From an uncultured Clostridia bacterium (GTDB lineage: Bacteria > Bacillota > Clostridia > Christensenellales > UBA1750): a DNA stretch of 64,000 bases. This document shows, in pieces, positions 7,001-64,000 of the stretch (positions within the stretch are counted from its first letter, which is position 1; every line of letters starts with the position of its first letter). The stretch is taken from contig CAJFMX010000008.1 of the NCBI GenBank assembly GCA_904393115.1, positions 1 through 64,000 of the forward strand, written 5' to 3'. The notes under the pieces are model-generated. The model was not told the DNA's origin and did not search any database. It saw only the letters and a program-made list of their open reading frames with translations. A program made the translations under genes and the position numbers.

Positions 7001-7021
7001 AGGCATGCGCAGGGCGATTTT
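6987..7021 (+). terminator. Rho-independent terminator
   Basis: ATCGCCCTGCGCA and TGCGCAGGGCGAT form a perfect 13-bp stem with a 6-base loop, followed by TTTT on the plus strand. It terminates the broken XRE gene. Confidence 0.75.
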
Positions 7022-7038
7022 CTGCTGAATGCATCGCT

Positions 7039-7416
7039 TCAGGACGGCTTCCCCGGCGATAAGCGGAGTTTCTCCCAGGTATTCATTCGATTTTCCAGGG
7101 CGATGATGGCCAAATAGGGGCAAACCGCTGCCAACAGCAAACAGGGCACTGCCAAATCGGAAAGCTGCGGTGCGCGTGCCCGCGTCAGCGCATCCAGTCG
7201 GTCCGCCTGCCTCCACGCCCAATACACTATGTAAAACGGCGCTGCCAGGCACAGCAGCATCTGCATGGCCGGGCGATACGTCTCCTCCCCGCAGCAATCG
7301 TTTACGCGCTGCGTCGCATCCCGCACAAAACAGCCGAGCGCAATCATATAGGCAAGGCCCAAGCCGACTATGGTTGCCAAGATCTGGAGCACATCCATCC
7401 ACTGCACGCTCTTCAC
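7039..7416 (-). CDS. Small membrane protein, DUF4234-like
   Basis: A 125-residue protein with three hydrophobic segments (about 10-30, 50-65, 85-105). The middle part (LAAPFYIVYWAWRQADRLDAL) and the end (PYLAIIALENRMNTW) resemble DUF4234-type proteins of Firmicutes. The GTG at 7416 lies only a few bases after GGAGGG, so the GTG at 7407 may be the real start. A TTGACT-17-TAAAAT promoter places the transcript start about 10-20 bases upstream. The function is unknown. Visibly lower GC than the core block suggests an accessory origin. Confidence 0.72.
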   Translation of the reverse strand: MKSVQWMDVLQILATIVGLGLAYMIALGCFVRDATQRVNDCCGEETYRPAMQMLLCLAAPFYIVYWAWRQADRLDALTRARAPQLSDLAVPCLLLAAVCPYLAIIALENRMNTWEKLRLSPGKPS

Positions 7417-7431
7417 CTTCCCTCCACGCTC

Positions 7432-7460
7432 ATTTTAATAAATTTATTTACTAAAGTCAA
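7432..7460 (-). promoter_or_regulatory. Promoter of the DUF4234-like gene
   Basis: TTGACT (7460-7455) and TAAAAT (7437-7432) on the minus strand are separated by 17 bp. The start site would fall just before the GGAGGG ribosome site, giving an almost leaderless transcript. Confidence 0.6.
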
Positions 7461-7535
7461 TGCAAAAAAAATCCCGTGTGATAAACTAAGCCATGAGAGA
7501 AAGTGAACGTGCGAGGGAGTGGAGGTGAGCAGGAG

Positions 7536-7769
7536 ATGAACCTCATGGCAAAGCTGCGGACGCTGCGGGAAGACAACGACCTGACGCAGGCGCAGGTCGC
7601 CGAGATCCTGGGCACATCGCAGACGATGGTCGCGCGCTATGAGCGCGGTGCGAACGAGCTGCCGCTGCGGCACCTCGCGGCGCTCTGCCGGCTCTACAAC
7701 GTCTCGGCGGACGATCTGCTGGACACCGCGCCGGACCCTGCGCGCCCCCGCGGCCGCTGTTCCCCTTGA
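7536..7769 (+). CDS. XRE-family transcriptional regulator, 77 aa
   Basis: A single helix-turn-helix domain (about residues 4-60): LRTLREDNDLTQAQVAEILG then TSQTMVARYERG, ending in the usual LYNVSADDLLD. The ATG at 7536 is preceded by GGAGGTGAGCAGGAG and is preferred; a GTG at 7503 would add 11 unlikely residues. There is no ligand or oligomerisation domain. It is transcribed toward tRNA-Pro, separated by a terminator, and is divergent from the small membrane protein gene. Its target is not evident. Confidence 0.85.
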   Translation: MNLMAKLRTLREDNDLTQAQVAEILGTSQTMVARYERGANELPLRHLAALCRLYNVSADDLLDTAPDPARPRGRCSP

Positions 7770-7827
7770 GGAAATTCCGGCCGCCTTGCGTGCTTTTTGC
7801 GCTCCGGCGGAATCGCCGCAAAACGAA

Positions 7828-7859
7828 AAAGTCCTGAAAACCTTCGTTTTCAGGACTTT
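7828..7859 (-). terminator. Terminator of tRNA-Pro
   Basis: AAAGTCCTGAAAA and TTTTCAGGACTTT pair perfectly. On the minus strand the stem is followed by TTCGTTTT. It lies just after the tRNA 3' end and may also help stop the XRE gene on the plus strand. Confidence 0.75.
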
Positions 7860-7863
7860 CCAC

Positions 7864-7940
7864 TGGTCTGGGTGAGAAGATTTGAACTTCCGGCCTCTTG
7901 AACCCCATTCAAGCACGCTACCAAGCTGCGCCACACCCAG
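7864..7940 (-). tRNA. tRNA-Pro (GGG)
   Basis: The minus strand folds as a cloverleaf. The acceptor stem is CTGGGTG/CACCCAG with encoded ACCA, and the D arm is GCGCAGCTTGGTAGCG. The anticodon stem CTTGA/TCAAG holds loop ATGGGGT (anticodon GGG), and the T arm contains GTTCAAATC. A TTGCAT-17-TAAGAT promoter is at 8002-7974, and the terminator follows at 7828-7859. Confidence 0.92.
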
Positions 7941-8011
7941 ATTTTCCGCCGCCGTACCTCGGCGACGGATATTATCTTACCACAGTGCGATCGAAAATGC
8001 AAGTCTTTTTT

Positions 8012-8482
8012 TCAAGTTTCTTCCGCCTTTTTTGGCGAGAGGATTCCGGCCGCCAGGCGCGCGCCGCACTCGATGCACTTCAGGCACGGCCGCTTCGCGT
8101 AATAAGCGGGGGTTCGCGCCTCCGGGACGGGCGAAGTCGAGGCCCCCGGCCCCAGGAGATCCCCGCAGAGGATGCTGCCCATCTCGCCCTCAAAGCGGTG
8201 GGCCAGGTCCTGCACGCGGGCATAGAGGGCCGCCTTGGCCTCGGCGTCCGCGGGGTCCGCATAGCCGCGCAGCGCGCCCTCGACGAGGAAGGCCGCGCTC
8301 AGCGCGCCGCAGACCTGCCGCAGGCGCCCCATGCCGGCGCCCAGGGGCGAGGCGAGCCGGAGCGCGCGCTCCGGCGTCTCCCCGATCTCCCCGGCAAAGG
8401 CCAGGAGCACGGACTGCGCGCAGTTGTAGCCGGCGAGGAAGTTCTCCCGCGCAGCGGCGGCGTACTCGTCCGCGGTGCGCAT
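8012..8482 (-). CDS. C_GCAxxG_C_C family redox-type protein
   Basis: The 156-residue protein carries the family's pattern: GYNCAQSVLLAF near the N-terminus, then VCGALSAAF (family GxxxTCGAVTGA-like), a lone C in ILCGDLLG, and the C-terminal CLKCIECGARL. These proteins are thought to bind a metal or act in redox chemistry; the function is unproven. The ATG at 8482 overlaps the mrp stop as TGATG, and a GTG sits one codon upstream. Co-transcription with Mrp and proximity to an Rrf2 regulator suggest an Fe-S or thiol-related role. Confidence 0.82.
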   Translation of the reverse strand: MRTADEYAAAARENFLAGYNCAQSVLLAFAGEIGETPERALRLASPLGAGMGRLRQVCGALSAAFLVEGALRGYADPADAEAKAALYARVQDLAHRFEGEMGSILCGDLLGPGASTSPVPEARTPAYYAKRPCLKCIECGARLAAGILSPKKAEET

Positions 8483-9312
8483 CACTTCACCTGCTCGACG
8501 ACGTCCGCGGCGTGCTCGATGGGATCGGTCACCGCCAGCTCAATCATGCCCTTGTCGCAGGCCGAGGCCAGGCGCGGGTCGAGCGGCAGCTTGCCCAGGA
8601 TCGGCAGGCCGAAGTGCTCGGCGACCTCCTCGACGTGGCTCTCGCCAAAGAGCGGGATCTGCTTGCCGCAGTCCGGGCAGAGGATGTAGGAGAAGTTCTC
8701 CACAAGGCCCAGGACCGGAATGTCCATGAGCTTGGCCATGTTCACGGCCTTCTCCACGATCATGGAGACGAGCTCCTGGGGCGAGGTGACGATGATCAGG
8801 CCGTCGAGCTTGATGGTCTGGAAGACCGTCAGCGCGACGTCGCCGGTTCCCGGAGGCATGTCGATGAAGAGCACGTCTTCGTCGTGCCAGATGACGTCCG
8901 TCCAGAACTGCTTGACCGTGCCGCCGATGATCGGGCCGCGCCAGACGACCGGGTCCGTCTCGTTCTCCAGGAGCAGGTTGATGGACATGACGTCGATGCC
9001 CGTCTTGGTGCGGACGGGATAGATGCCGTTTTCATCGCCCGTGGCCTTGTCGCGCAGGCCGAAGATCTTCGGGATCGACGGGCCCGTGATGTCCGCGTCC
9101 AGGATGCCGACGCCCAGGTTCCGGCGCTTGAGCGCCACCGCCAGGAGCGAGGTGACCATGGACTTGCCCACGCCGCCCTTGCCGGAGACGACGCCGATGA
9201 CCTTCTTGATGTTCGAGAGCGCGTGCGGCGCCTCGTGCATGTCCTCCGGCTGCTGCCGGGAGGGACAGTCCACGCCGCAGGAGCTGCAGTCGTGGGTGCA
9301 GTTTTCACTCAT
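8482..9312 (-). CDS. Mrp/NBP35-type P-loop ATPase, Fe-S carrier
   Basis: A 276-residue ParA-like ATPase that carries or delivers Fe-S clusters. The deviant Walker A SGKGGVGKS is at 43-51, switch elements are DADITGPSIPK and DMPPGTGD, and the cluster-binding CPDC is at 212-215. An N-terminal extension with four cysteines (5, 9, 12, 16; CTHDCSSCGVDC) matches the NBP35-like form rather than the short Mrp form. It heads an operon with the C_GCAxxG protein. The promoter at 9384-9406 is overlapped by a dyad next to the rrf2 gene. Confidence 0.92.
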   Translation of the reverse strand: MSENCTHDCSSCGVDCPSRQQPEDMHEAPHALSNIKKVIGVVSGKGGVGKSMVTSLLAVALKRRNLGVGILDADITGPSIPKIFGLRDKATGDENGIYPVRTKTGIDVMSINLLLENETDPVVWRGPIIGGTVKQFWTDVIWHDEDVLFIDMPPGTGDVALTVFQTIKLDGLIIVTSPQELVSMIVEKAVNMAKLMDIPVLGLVENFSYILCPDCGKQIPLFGESHVEEVAEHFGLPILGKLPLDPRLASACDKGMIELAVTDPIEHAADVVEQVK

Positions 9313-9378
9313 GTGTTTTGACCTCCCCTGTGTTGCGGGCGCACGGCGCAGGGCCGCCCCGCTCGCGTTTCTTCTACT

Positions 9379-9418
9379 ATTATAGTCTGCCTTCGGTTTC
9401 TGTCAAGTGTCAGAAACC
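9379..9418 (-). promoter_or_regulatory. mrp promoter with overlapping dyad, probable Rrf2 operator
   Basis: TTGACA (9406-9401), 16-bp spacer and TATAAT (9384-9379) form a strong minus-strand promoter for mrp. The -35 box is embedded in GGTTTCTG (9395-9402) and CAGAAACC (9411-9418), an 8-bp inverted repeat with an 8-base centre. The right arm covers the rrf2 stop codon. No T tract follows, so an operator is more likely than a terminator. Confidence 0.72.
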
Positions 9419-19744: not shown

Positions 19745-20638
19745 ATGAAACCGCTGATCAAACCAAAGCGATTGGCAAGTGGGGAGAAAATTGCGACCGT
19801 AAGCCCCTGTCACGGCTGGGCCGGAGATGTGGAGACAAAATGGAAATACGATTTGGGCGTTTCGCGTTTGCAGGAATTGGGTCTTTAGGTCGTGGCGGCG
19901 CCAAACTCGCTGCGGGGCTCCGCGTATTTATCCCAAAATCCTGCGGCTCGTGCAGACGACCTGCAGTGGACCTTTGAAAACAAGGAGATTCGTGCGATTG
20001 TTGCGAACGTCGGGGGGAATGACAGCATGCATCCGATAGCGGATCCGTCTGGGTGGCATGCATACAGCAAAAAATGGTTTCTCAAAACATTGTTTGATGC
20101 GTCGCCTATCGGTCCAATCGAGCCCTCGCCCGACTGGACCTTTGAGCCCTCCGATCCGGTTCACAGGGAAAAGAAGAGGGCCTATTCCCCAAACAGCGGT
20201 TACGAAATCATTCAGGGCAAGGGCGTTGCAACCGGGCGATTGATCGGCGGCCACACAGGGATTCTGGAGCTGGAGGGAACTTGTATCGCGCTCACACCAG
20301 AAGATTATGAGGGAGCAATCCTGTTCATCGAAGACATTCCCGAGTTTTTTGATGAAAAGGGCGTGCGCGTTTTCTTTGCGTATCTGGGGCAAAAGGGGAT
20401 TTTGCAGAGACTAAACGGAATCATTCTCGGCAAGGCGAATGAGAATTGCTCTTTTTCGGGGAGATCGCAGGTCATTCGGCAAATCGTTTCCGAAAAATAC
20501 GCCTGTTCCATACCCATCGTGTATGGACTGAATTTTGGTCATTCCTCCCCTATGTTTGTATTGCCTTACGGCGCGCTTGCCGAAATTAACTGCGAGAAGC
20601 AAACTTTTTCCATTTTAGAAAGCGGCGTACTTGCATAA
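19745..20638 (+). pseudogene. S66-family (MccF-like) carboxypeptidase, decayed
   Basis: From the ATG at 19745 (TTAGGAGGG upstream) the frame reads KRLASGEKIATVSPCHGWAG and YDLGVSRLQELGL, then an in-frame TAG at 19886, then VVAAPNSLRGSAYLSQNPAA and IVANVGGNDSM, all in one frame. After that the alignment jumps to KKWFLKTLFDASPIGPI, skipping about 60-80 residues, including the GYSDTT-type loop with the nucleophilic serine. The end is intact (LIGGHTGILELEGT, GLNFGHSSPM). GC is visibly lower than in its neighbours, suggesting acquisition followed by decay. S66 enzymes cleave murein tetrapeptides or microcin C. Confidence 0.85.
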
Positions 20639-60640: not shown

Positions 60641-62266
60641 TCACGCGCGGAAGCGGATCCTGCCGCCCATGACCGTAAGGCACGGCGAAAGGTCCTTGAC
60701 CTGCTCGGGCGCGACCTCGAAGAAGTCCTCCGGAAGGACCGTGAGGTCCGCGTCGAACCCGGGGACGAGGTCTCCGCGCCGCTTTTCGTCCCCGCTCGCC
60801 GCGGCGACGTTGCGTGTGAAGACGCGCAGCGCCTCCTGCGCGTTGAGGTTCTCCTCGGGCCGCCAGCCGCCCGCGGGCTCGCCGGCAAAGTCCGCGCGCG
60901 TCATGGCGCAGTAGAGGTTCTTGCAGCTGTCCATGCCCTCGACCGGGCAGTCCGAGCCGCCGGAGACGTTGACCCCGCGCCGGAGCAGCCCCTTCCAGCT
61001 GTAGCTGTGCGCGGCGCGCGCCTGGCCCACGCGGTCCTCGACGATGTGCGCGTCGTATTCCAGGAACACGGGCTGCACATAGGCCTGCACGCCCAGCGCC
61101 GCGAACCGGTCCAGCAGCGCCTCGTCCGTGATCTGGCAGTGGACGATGCCGTGGCGGGGCTTGTGGTCCGGGTCGTCCTTCTGCGCATGCTCGATGGCCG
61201 TCAGGCACACATCCATGGCCGCGTCGCCGATGGCGTGGATGGCCACGGGCATGCCGTGCGCGTGCGCGGCGCGGACCATCGCCTCGATCTCCTCCGGCGC
61301 GTAGCAGAGCAGGCCGCGCGTCTCCGGCGCGTCGGCATAGGGCGCGCGCAAATACGCCGTGCGCGCGCCGAGCGACCCGTCGGAGATGATCTTGAGGCTG
61401 TAGAGCGAGAAGGCGCCCTCCGCCTCGCCCGAAAAATGGCCCTGCGCAAAGAAGCGCTCGATCTCCGCCTCCCCCAGCAGCTGGCACTGTTCCAAGACGC
61501 GCACGGCCAGCGCGTCCTCGCGCGCGAGCTTCCGGTAGGCCGCGATCACCGTCTCCGGGCTGCACCCGGCCATGGCGTGCAGGTCGTCCGAGTGGACGCA
61601 GGTGATGCCGCGCGAGGCCGCGTACTCCGCCGCGCGGCGCAGGATCTCCGCCGCCTCGTCCACGGAGACCTCGCGCTCCGTCTTGTACAGCAGGCTGACC
61701 GCGTTCTCGCTGACGATGCCTGTGGGCCTGCCCGCCTCGTCCAGGTAGATCTCCCCGCCCGGCACGCGCGTCGCCTCCGTGATGCCGAAGCGCTCCAGGG
61801 CGCGCGTGTTTCCCACCGCGATGTGGCCGCAGATGCGCGGCGCGACGATCGGGTGCTCCGTGGAGACGGCGTCCAGGTCCTGCCGGGTGGGCATGCGCCT
61901 GTCGGGGAAGCGGTCCTGGTTCCAGCCGTGGGCGTAGACGACCTCGCCCGCGGGGATGTGGTTCTGCTCGATGAAGCGGCGGCAGAGCGCCTGCACCTCC
62001 TCGATGGAGTTGGCGTCCTTGAGCTCCACCTCGCGCAGCGTCACGCCGAAGTGGAGCAGGTGCATGTGGCTGTCGCCAAAGCCGGGGTAGACCGTCGCGC
62101 CGTGCAGGTCCACGCACTCCGTCTCCTCGCCCCGGAGCATGAGGATGGCCTCGTCGTCGCCCAGGGCGTAGATCTTGCCGTCCAATATGGCCATGGCCGT
62201 CTCCGGAAGGAGGCCGTCCAGCCCGCGCAGGCGCGCGTTATAGAGAATCAACTGCATGTCGTCCAT
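60641..62266 (-). CDS. YtcJ-like amidohydrolase
   Basis: The 541-residue metal-dependent hydrolase has GDSHMHLLHFG (metal HxH), HGWNQDRFPD, ISDGSLGARTAYLRAPY, HAIGDAAMD and NVSGGSDCPVEGMDS, the YtcJ/ExeB-type pattern. Family members hydrolyse amide or formyl bonds of small molecules; the substrate is unknown. The ATG at 62266 shares its A with the TGA of the NlpC/P60 gene, so it is the last gene of the murein-peptide cluster. Confidence 0.93.
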   Translation of the reverse strand: MDDMQLILYNARLRGLDGLLPETAMAILDGKIYALGDDEAILMLRGEETECVDLHGATVYPGFGDSHMHLLHFGVTLREVELKDANSIEEVQALCRRFIEQNHIPAGEVVYAHGWNQDRFPDRRMPTRQDLDAVSTEHPIVAPRICGHIAVGNTRALERFGITEATRVPGGEIYLDEAGRPTGIVSENAVSLLYKTEREVSVDEAAEILRRAAEYAASRGITCVHSDDLHAMAGCSPETVIAAYRKLAREDALAVRVLEQCQLLGEAEIERFFAQGHFSGEAEGAFSLYSLKIISDGSLGARTAYLRAPYADAPETRGLLCYAPEEIEAMVRAAHAHGMPVAIHAIGDAAMDVCLTAIEHAQKDDPDHKPRHGIVHCQITDEALLDRFAALGVQAYVQPVFLEYDAHIVEDRVGQARAAHSYSWKGLLRRGVNVSGGSDCPVEGMDSCKNLYCAMTRADFAGEPAGGWRPEENLNAQEALRVFTRNVAAASGDEKRRGDLVPGFDADLTVLPEDFFEVAPEQVKDLSPCLTVMGGRIRFRA

Positions 62267-63081
62267 CAAAAGATACTCCCGCAATCCGTCATGGTCTCGC
62301 GCAGGTCCCCGCGGTAGCGCGGGTGGCCCGGCGTCAGGGAGGCCAGCACCACGCCCTCGTCCCCCTCGTGGGAGGTGGAGTGGATGAACAGGCCGTTGCG
62401 AATGTACATCCCCACGTGGCCGGGGAAGAAGAGCAGGTCGCCCATCTGCACCCTGTCAAAGGGGATGCTGTGCACGGGGAAGCCGGGCACGATCTTCGCG
62501 TCGCGGTAGATGAGCACGCCGCAGAGCATGTAGGCCATCGAGCACAGGCCCGAGCAGTCGATGCCCAGCGGCGACTTGCCGCCCCAGCGGTAGGGCGCGC
62601 CCAGGTACGGCAGCGCCGCCTGCACGATCTCCCGGCGCAGCGCCGCCTCGTCCTTGCCCTGCGCGCTCGTCACGTGCGGCGCGAGGTAGTTCGTCCGCGT
62701 CCAGGCGCGGCTGCCGTTCGGGAGGATGACCTCGGACCAACCGTTCTCCGCGGTGCGGCCGCTCACGCCCAGCAGCGCCCCGCGCGGCACGCTGACGCGC
62801 GGGCTGCTCTGCACGCGCGGCTCGCGCATCAGGTCTGCGCAGCGCTTTGTGAGGATGCGCTTTTGCGCGGCGTCAAAGTCGCGCGTCCCCTCCCCCTCGG
62901 GGAAGAGGCGCCCCCGCTCCACCCATCCCTCGTAGCGGTAGTGCGTGCGCACGCGCACCCATTCCTTCTTCTCCTCCAGAACCTCCACGCGCATGCCGAA
63001 GAGCGCCTCGTCCGCCTGCTCGCAGACGCGCGCCGGCTCGCTCATCAGGGGCGCAAGGCCCGTGACAATCCGTGCAAACAC
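62266..63081 (-). CDS. NlpC/P60 endopeptidase with SH3 domains, YkfC-like
   Basis: The 271-residue protein has two SH3b-like domains (about 1-60 and 75-135) and a C40 peptidase domain: YRWGGKSPLGIDCSGLCSMA (Cys176), GDLLFFPGHVGMYI (His222) and FIHSTSHEGDEG (His234). No signal peptide is present, so it acts in the cytoplasm. That matches YkfC, a gamma-D-glutamyl-L-diamino-acid endopeptidase of murein-peptide recycling, and the neighbours fit. ATG at 63081. Confidence 0.93.
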   Translation of the reverse strand: MFARIVTGLAPLMSEPARVCEQADEALFGMRVEVLEEKKEWVRVRTHYRYEGWVERGRLFPEGEGTRDFDAAQKRILTKRCADLMREPRVQSSPRVSVPRGALLGVSGRTAENGWSEVILPNGSRAWTRTNYLAPHVTSAQGKDEAALRREIVQAALPYLGAPYRWGGKSPLGIDCSGLCSMAYMLCGVLIYRDAKIVPGFPVHSIPFDRVQMGDLLFFPGHVGMYIRNGLFIHSTSHEGDEGVVLASLTPGHPRYRGDLRETMTDCGSIF

Positions 63082-63111
63082 GGCAATTCCCCCTTTTTTC
63101 TCTTTTTTCGT

Positions 63112-63885
63112 CTATTGCAGTTCGTCCACGACGCGCTTTGCGATGCGGCCGATCGTGCGCCGTCCCGCGCCCTCCTCGGGCAGGTCCGTGACAAAGACCC
63201 CGAGGTAAACGGGCGGCCGGTCCGCCAGGAAGAAGATCCCGCTGTCGTGGTCCACGTCCGCAAGGCTCCCGGTCTTGTGCGCGGCGCGCAGCGGCTGCGG
63301 GATGTAGCGGAAGAAGTCGTCCTTGCAGCGCTGGGCGAGGAGGATCTCCATCGCGTGGCCGCACATCCCGGGCGAGAGGACCTCCTCCCGGTAGATCCCG
63401 CGGAACATCGCGCACTGGTCGCGGGCGCTGGTGTAGTTGTTGCGCCCGGCGTCGATGGCGGCGTAGTCGAGCATGCACCGCTCCAGCCGGGTGCTCCCCC
63501 AGCCCTGCGCCTGGCAGAAGGCGTTGACGCGCTCCATCGTCAGGCGCCGGATCAATGCGTTTGTCGCGGTGTTGTCGCTGGTGATGATCATCCAGCGCAG
63601 CAGCTCGTCCAGGGTCAGGGCCTGCGGGCCGCCGTCAAAGACTTCGCTGTCGGGCAGGATGTGCGGCGCGGGGACGAAGATCTCCTCCGCAAGGCTTGCC
63701 CGCCCCTGCTCGACCTCGCGCAGCGCGGAAAGCAGGATCGCCACCTTGATCGTGGAGGCGGAGACCACGCGCCGGTCCGCGTCCCATTCCAGCAGCGTCT
63801 CCCCGCTCCCGGCGTCCGCAAGGAGCAGGGACGCGCGGCCCGGGCCCGCCTGCGCGATCGAAAGAACCTCTTGTTTCCAGTCCAT
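63112..63885 (-). CDS. Class A beta-lactamase-like serine hydrolase
   Basis: The 257-residue protein has the serine-penicillin-recognising motifs: SASTIK (SxxK, Ser44-Lys47), SDN (103-105) and KTG near 208 in AHKTGSLADVDHDSGI. An omega-loop ExxLN is not evident, so lactamase activity is doubtful. There is no signal peptide, unlike secreted lactamases. The place between an S66 carboxypeptidase and an NlpC/P60 peptidase suggests a cytoplasmic hydrolase acting on murein peptides or D-amino-acid amides. The functional call is inference. Confidence 0.88.
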   Translation of the reverse strand: MDWKQEVLSIAQAGPGRASLLLADAGSGETLLEWDADRRVVSASTIKVAILLSALREVEQGRASLAEEIFVPAPHILPDSEVFDGGPQALTLDELLRWMIITSDNTATNALIRRLTMERVNAFCQAQGWGSTRLERCMLDYAAIDAGRNNYTSARDQCAMFRGIYREEVLSPGMCGHAMEILLAQRCKDDFFRYIPQPLRAAHKTGSLADVDHDSGIFFLADRPPVYLGVFVTDLPEEGAGRRTIGRIAKRVVDELQ

Positions 63886-63900
63886 GTGCGCCTCCGTTCT

Positions 63901-64000
63901 CAGTCGGGAAGGATGGTGAGCGTCTGCGCGCCGGCGTCCAGCTCCGCCCGCGCGCCCAAGGGGAGCGAGAGCGTGGGCTCGCTGTGGCCGCAGGTCAGGC
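63901..64000 (-). CDS. S66 LD-carboxypeptidase, C-terminal fragment (runs off the window)
   Basis: The last 32 codons before the TGA at 63901 read CGHSEPTLSLPLGARAELDA then GAQTLTILPD. This matches the end of S66 peptidases (YkfA/MccF/LdcA type), with the catalytic histidine in GHSEPTLSLPLG. The gene continues past base 64000. It lies 15 bases before the serine hydrolase gene and heads the visible part of a murein-peptide recycling operon. Confidence 0.78.

Follow-up and report, generated by a model that had tools for sequence, protein, structure and literature searches.

To our knowledge, the catabolism of murein stem peptides in Gram-positive bacteria is known mainly from ykfABC, without an enzyme that deals with the ends of pentapeptides. 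In the ykfABCD/dpp genes of Bacillus subtilis, an S66 peptidase and a YkfC-type endopeptidase are encoded together with peptide transporter genes (PMC2954226, PMC3305447). PBP-A of Thermosynechococcus elongatus, a penicillin-binding protein (PBP), is both a DD-carboxypeptidase and a DD-endopeptidase, and strongly prefers peptides that contain D-isoglutamine (D-isoGln) (PMC11189452). Here we describe a gene array at the end of a 64,000-nucleotide stretch of DNA from an uncultured Clostridia bacterium (the window, which is the first 64000 bases of the 102,612-base contig C8). In this array, a serine hydrolase with the class A beta-lactamase fold is encoded between an S66 LD-carboxypeptidase and a YkfC-type NlpC/P60 peptidase. 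The hydrolase is a standing member of such operons in Bacillota and very likely a relative of PBP-A, and is presumably cytoplasmic.

A probable peptide-recycling operon at the end of the window

Three open reading frames occupy positions 60641-63885, all on the minus strand, and the S66 gene straddles the window end (Table 1). A first-pass annotation had described S66, serine hydrolase, YkfC-like NlpC/P60 and amidohydrolase genes lying head to tail, and both the domain matches and the spacing bear this out. Only 14 bp separate the S66 stop from the hydrolase start and 30 bp separate the hydrolase from the NlpC/P60 gene, while the NlpC/P60 and amidohydrolase genes share a TGATG stop-start overlap at 62264-62268 if the ATG at 62264-62266 is the amidohydrolase start. 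The short spacing of the array genes is operon-like; scans for promoters (0 sites, against 1.3 in shuffled sequence) and terminators (9, against 7.5) were uninformative.

Upstream of the hydrolase, and contiguous with it, lie the S66 gene, all the genes of an OppABCDF importer and a gene for a VanX-type D-Ala-D-Ala dipeptidase. The likeness to the ykf operon proposed in the first-pass annotation thus stands, with S66, YkfC-type and peptide transporter genes together, and the contiguous Opp, S66 and VanX-type genes are not the unrelated-pathway neighbours that it had named as grounds for doubt. It had also proposed that the hydrolase replaces the transporter and epimerase genes, and had pointed to the sequence past 64000 for both. 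The transporter genes are there, with oppF, D, C, B and A encoded one after another on the minus strand, which contradicts the first half of that proposal. No L-Ala-D/L-Glu epimerase was found within the hydrolase operon; the epimerase gene lies on another contig, C13. We conclude that the array very likely supplies the enzymes of an operon for stem-peptide catabolism that is fed by Opp.

The serine hydrolase

Class A beta-lactamases such as TEM, SHV and PER share with the hydrolase their fold and their three catalytic motifs, which are intact here (S44xxK47, S103DN105 and K204TG206), but the hydrolase differs from them in Glu166, export and NCBIfam score. First, the column of Glu166, the general base in the omega loop, holds Met138, and Glu occurs there in 0/92 aligned domains. 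The register of this column follows from PBP-A: its Leu158, replaced by Glu in the L158E mutant, aligns with Met138. Second, the hydrolase has no signal peptide, its translation beginning adjacent to the domain, and a hydrophobic 15-mer ahead of the domain was found in 0/45 members of its clade, compared with 12/19 in a clade from Acidobacteriota and Proteobacteria; its earlier description as signal-less is therefore sound. Third, the NCBIfam model for class A beta-lactamases (NF033103) gives 95.8 bits, below its cut-off of 200. PF00144, the class C/AmiE-type family to which we take AmiE to belong, gives 18.7 bits, also below its cut-off (27).

The structure of the hydrolase is predicted with confidence (model pLDDT 97.8), and its neighbours among solved structures are 4hes (Z 35.9), 6v4w (35.0), LRA-5 (34.7), 4ewf (34.2) and PBP-A (2j7v; Z 33.3, root-mean-square deviation 2.2 over 250 residues, 25% identity over the fold). 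Ordinary class A enzymes score Z of about 33 and lower. Since they fall within a few Z units, structure does not separate a PBP from a beta-lactamase. A family profile made from 66 sequences picked from the 92 domains scored 4ewf at 194, 4hes at 193 and PBP-A at 179 bits (175 for its L158E mutant), 6v4w at 115 and LRA-5 at 110. In the five alignments shown, the Met138 column has no Glu in 4ewf, 4hes and PBP-A, and has Glu in 6v4w. The loop preceding SDN varies between clades and aligns uncertainly, and comparison with the PBP-A specificity residue Glu96 rests on that loop. Taken together, the hydrolase is very likely PBP-A-like and not a beta-lactamase.

Gene order across homologues

Homologues were drawn from a search of named genomes (at least 80 loci listed out of 557 confirmed relatives), to which the order sample described below added more. 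Gene context was counted around 90 hydrolase genes, using neighbour labels that need only 35 bits; OppA labels near Acidobacteriota genes were left unused. The direct order S66 > hydrolase > NlpC/P60 was found in 25 of the 90 (two of these loci, L037 and L067, are from strains of one species), and NlpC/P60 lies directly downstream of the hydrolase in 33. The S66 > hydrolase > NlpC/P60 arrangement exceeds chance. Within 10.5 kb of the 25 ordered loci we found OppD at 21, the epimerase at 11 and the amidohydrolase at 7, and, among enzymes that handle D-Ala-D-Ala, DppA (M55) at 13 and VanX-type dipeptidases at 10; these counts are lower bounds because several contigs end early. Hosts of homologues include Lysinibacillus, Ureibacillus, Caproiciproducens, Angelakisella and Flavonifractor, and the closest record among the matches listed is from an uncultured Clostridia bacterium.

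A midpoint-rooted tree of the 92 domains groups the cluster enzymes into a single clade with support 96/98, which comprises 45 rows, all from Bacillota. S66, NlpC/P60 or epimerase genes are nearby in 38/45 of these rows, or in 40/45 when L062 and L064 are counted. These two loci, which have epimerase and NlpC/P60 genes nearby, are in the tree and outside the 90-gene count, as the hydrolase of each falls within a long reading frame that carries another label. Neither the alignment nor the tree includes L034, which shares its contig with L024, or L049 and L110, whose hydrolases are partial.

A second group of hydrolase paralogues lies directly upstream of the epimerase (L029:6820-7578, L037:909-1658, L038:990-1739), in clusters from Caproiciproducens and G067 that also hold the first hydrolase. 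At five loci a gene for an S58 peptidase, which we take to be of the DmpA type, lies upstream of the cluster (L068:90-1148, identified by its Pfam match, and similar genes in L054, L056, L061 and L065). At the Erysipelotrichaceae locus L041:9983-10759, no recycling genes are nearby, and an alanine racemase and a UppP/BacA gene adjoin on the other strand (7012-9403).

Distribution of the hydrolase and the epimerase

The enolase-superfamily domain has seven matches in the window's genome. One of them (G000:C13:58142-59233) is nearest, among solved structures, to the B. subtilis L-Ala-D/L-Glu epimerase 1jpm (345.8 bits), and scores below the cut-off of the closest NCBIfam epimerase model (257.5 vs 500). 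A second candidate, at C20, is nearest to the dipeptide epimerase 3jva (240.2 bits). The 3jva-like gene is followed by three tandem PF00144 + DUF3471 hydrolases and by peptide-transporter genes (L115:9022-18537; G000:C20, ~33-42.5 kb), making this a second site in the genome that unites an epimerase, beta-lactamase-fold hydrolases and peptide import. The sole match of the genome to an M55 D-aminopeptidase (DppA type) is elsewhere (L116; G000:C10, ~65.9 kb), just before OppB- and OppC-like genes, in a separate dpp-like locus.

In a sample of 200 genomes of the same order, strong matches to the hydrolase (E <= 1.7e-62) and to the epimerase (E <= 1e-80) fall in the same seven genomes, on different contigs in six of them; the hydrolase cut-off was picked afterwards and leaves out four genomes with weaker matches, whose genes fall in the second paralogue group of the tree. 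NlpC/P60 is present in 11/200. The other cut-offs for these genome samples were fixed in advance of the respective results, although the order results were already known when those of the class sample were chosen. That class sample holds 381 genomes, or 380 once the window's own is left out, and its background is 25/380 genomes for the epimerase and 20/380 for NlpC/P60; 13 of those 25 epimerase genomes lack the hydrolase at the cut-off used. Fisher values on such co-occurrence ignore kinship, and absences from draft genomes may reflect incompleteness.

Partner enzymes

The NlpC/P60 protein has the catalytic Cys, two His, Asp256 and SH3b Tyr118 (B. cereus numbering), and thereby belongs to the YkfC subfamily as defined by Asp256 and Tyr118 (PMC2954226). 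Across 39 aligned homologues, Tyr is found in 39/39, Cys in 38/38, and Asp256 and both His in 37/37 of the rows with a letter. The nearest solved chains are 3npf, 3pvq and B. cereus YkfC (3h41). The Ser, Glu, His triad of the S66 enzyme is present in 35/35 aligned homologues. A second S66-family gene lies on the plus strand of the window (~19745-20638); it has one in-frame TAG, after which the remaining part matches PF17676 (76.1 bits), and either a pseudogene or a sequencing error may account for the stop.

Among solved chains, the amidohydrolase is closest to metal-dependent hydrolases that are uncharacterised. Among the loci examined, the array includes it at six loci of the window's own family and otherwise only in G067, from the same order; homologues (E <= 1e-60) occur in 17/200 order genomes. 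We considered it as a core member of the array, which is unsupported: G049, G123 and G136 have a homologue without any match to the hydrolase, NlpC/P60 or epimerase. It is a local addition of putative function. The G067 match (G067:C23:19912-21522) contains one TAG.

Table 1. Genes of the array and its upstream neighbours; C8 coordinates continue those of the window.
Feature	Position	Strand	Domain evidence
YtcJ-like amidohydrolase	60641-62284	-	PF07969, 358.6 bits
SH3b + NlpC/P60 peptidase, YkfC-type gamma-D-Glu-diamino acid endopeptidase	62266-63081	-	PF00877, 69.7 bits; SH3_3
Serine hydrolase, class A beta-lactamase fold, 257 amino acids	63112-63885	-	PF13354, 179.7 bits
S66 LD-carboxypeptidase	C8:63900-64892 (= L004:5901-6893); 63900-64000 is the 3' end in the window	-	both S66 domains above cut-off
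OppF, OppD, OppC, OppB, OppA, then VanX-type M15 dipeptidase	upstream of S66, up to C8:72397	-	Pfam above cut-off each

Discussion

We infer the substrates and the direction of the pathway as follows. OppABCDF would import free murein peptides, whose D-Ala ends would be handled by the VanX-type and S66 peptidases; the YkfC-type NlpC/P60 enzyme would then split L-Ala-D-Glu from the diamino acid, and the epimerase encoded elsewhere would open L-Ala-D-Glu to ordinary dipeptidases. Ser44 of the hydrolase, assisted by Lys47, would form an acyl-enzyme, and the absence of Glu166 leads us to expect slow turnover of penicillins. The hydrolase could trim the last D-Ala from imported pentapeptides, allowing S66 to act on the resulting tetrapeptide. 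This DD-carboxypeptidase role is our best single guess, offered tentatively, because a characterised relative does the same, the gene often adjoins that of S66, and the operon also encodes D-Ala-D-Ala peptidases. The statement as a whole, in which an Opp-fed operon includes a PBP-A-like hydrolase that performs the DD-carboxypeptidase step, is likewise put forward as possible rather than probable.

Several observations weigh against it. It presupposes that pentapeptides are not substrates of S66 enzymes, which are not known to act on them. The five remaining rows of the hydrolase's clade, one Erysipelotrichaceae/Bacilli subclade, have none of the recycling neighbours, and in four other clusters (L047, L051, L053, L066) the hydrolase and NlpC/P60 occur with no S66 found nearby. 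By Z, 6v4w, which has Glu in the Met138 column, comes second, so that structure alone is undecisive with respect to beta-lactamases, and PBP-A, 25% identical over the fold, appears to differ from the hydrolase in sequence around Glu96. PBP-A itself was studied as a cell-wall enzyme, with expression in the E. coli periplasm (PMC11189452). Distribution gives two further points. In the class sample, 12/14 hydrolase genomes have the epimerase compared with 8/14 that have NlpC/P60, and this closer tracking of the epimerase is not what a DD-carboxypeptidase acting ahead of S66 predicts. In addition, G108, a genome from the same genus as the window, retains the VanX, Opp, S66 and NlpC/P60 genes in order but has neither hydrolase nor epimerase. 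At that locus 36 bp separate the S66 and NlpC/P60 matches, with hydrolase and amidohydrolase absent (an amidohydrolase homologue, at 42%, is on another contig); since the genome is 93% complete, the absence of the epimerase is less secure than that of the genes at the locus.

The hydrolase could instead serve the L-Ala-D-Glu/L-Ala-L-Glu branch, either finishing the epimerase product or preparing the epimerase substrate. Its link to the epimerase is the main result against the DD-carboxypeptidase guess and leaves such a role possible: besides the shared occurrence in both samples and the joint loss in G108, nine of the 12 class-sample pairs share a contig, seven of these within 160 bp, and L051 and L066 have the order hydrolase > epimerase > NlpC/P60. 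However, the 25 ordered homologues place the hydrolase between S66 and NlpC/P60 and not beside the epimerase, and we know of no characterised relative of this fold that cuts such dipeptides. We consider a role in this branch unlikely.

An amidase is a less probable alternative still. It would strip the carboxamide from imported D-isoGln or amidated diaminopimelate peptides, enabling YkfC and the epimerase to act. PBP-A reads the D-isoGln amide (PMC11189452), and the carboxamide of L-Ala-D-isoGln would present the L-D geometry that PBP-type enzymes acylate. Yet the window's genome lacks MurT_C, the partner that amidates D-Glu, as do 17/21 hydrolase-bearing genomes and, for comparison, 22/30 others. 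Its absence weakens deamidation of the cell's own peptides and leaves peptides from other bacteria as possible substrates.

The class A fold (Z ~32-36 to many class A enzymes) and the intact SxxK, SDN and KTG motifs could also mark a true beta-lactamase, or a penicillin-binding sensor, in the operon by happenstance. This is very improbable given the missing Glu166 and signal peptide and the NCBIfam score, in keeping with the first-pass annotation, which had suggested a new peptide or amide hydrolase; LRA-5, which is also without Glu166, has biologically insignificant activity (PMC12777564). Least probable of all is an L-Ala-D-Glu hydrolase that takes the epimerase's place, the idea of that same annotation: the epimerase gene is outside the operon but in the same genome, and the relatives show co-occurrence (7/200 order and 12/14 class genomes) where replacement predicts avoidance.

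This PBP relative, which is conserved, has no signal peptide and occurs in organisms from Lysinibacillus to Caproiciproducens, offers a concrete candidate for the missing catabolic step. Its operon also provides a biological context for class A folds that lack Glu166 and carry the database label 'beta-lactamase', with a bearing on resistance annotation and on ideas of beta-lactamase origin. In its widest form, the proposal would be that a cytoplasmic serine enzyme with the PBP fold carries out a dedicated and as yet unassigned step in the breakdown of murein peptides across Bacillota, with a functional tie to the Ala-Glu epimerase, and that no serine enzyme of the cytoplasm has been described for the bond it cuts. 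Members of the family would then be present-day relatives, without Glu166 and without a role against antibiotics, of the sort that could have given rise to class A beta-lactamases. That full proposal we regard as doubtful, though not implausible.

The cytoplasmic DD-carboxypeptidase of Enterococcus is a VanY-type metalloenzyme and not a serine enzyme. It too trims pentapeptide to tetrapeptide, but acts on precursors (PMC6127315). Like the hydrolase, PBP-A (2j7v) has SxxK, SDN and KTG, an N-x-T-S stretch, an Asp after KTG and no Glu166 (Leu158 in its place), while it reads KTGD where the hydrolase reads KTGS and, as far as seen, it is not in a peptide-recycling operon. The Veillonella parvula entry 4hes and 4ewf are the best profile matches, have no Glu in the Met138 column and, in the case of 4hes, come first by structure; both are structural-genomics entries, and no function for 4hes was found in open-access full text. 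Within open-access PMC full text, with subscription literature outside the scope, we found no description of such a hydrolase in a recycling operon, and the word 'lactamase' does not occur in the main text of the YkfC structure paper (PMC2954226). Relative to ykfABCD/dpp, the operon lacks the epimerase, encodes an entire Opp transporter, and has a serine hydrolase and an amidohydrolase in addition. Pathway and fold are thus known, and their combination is new as far as the open-access literature shows.

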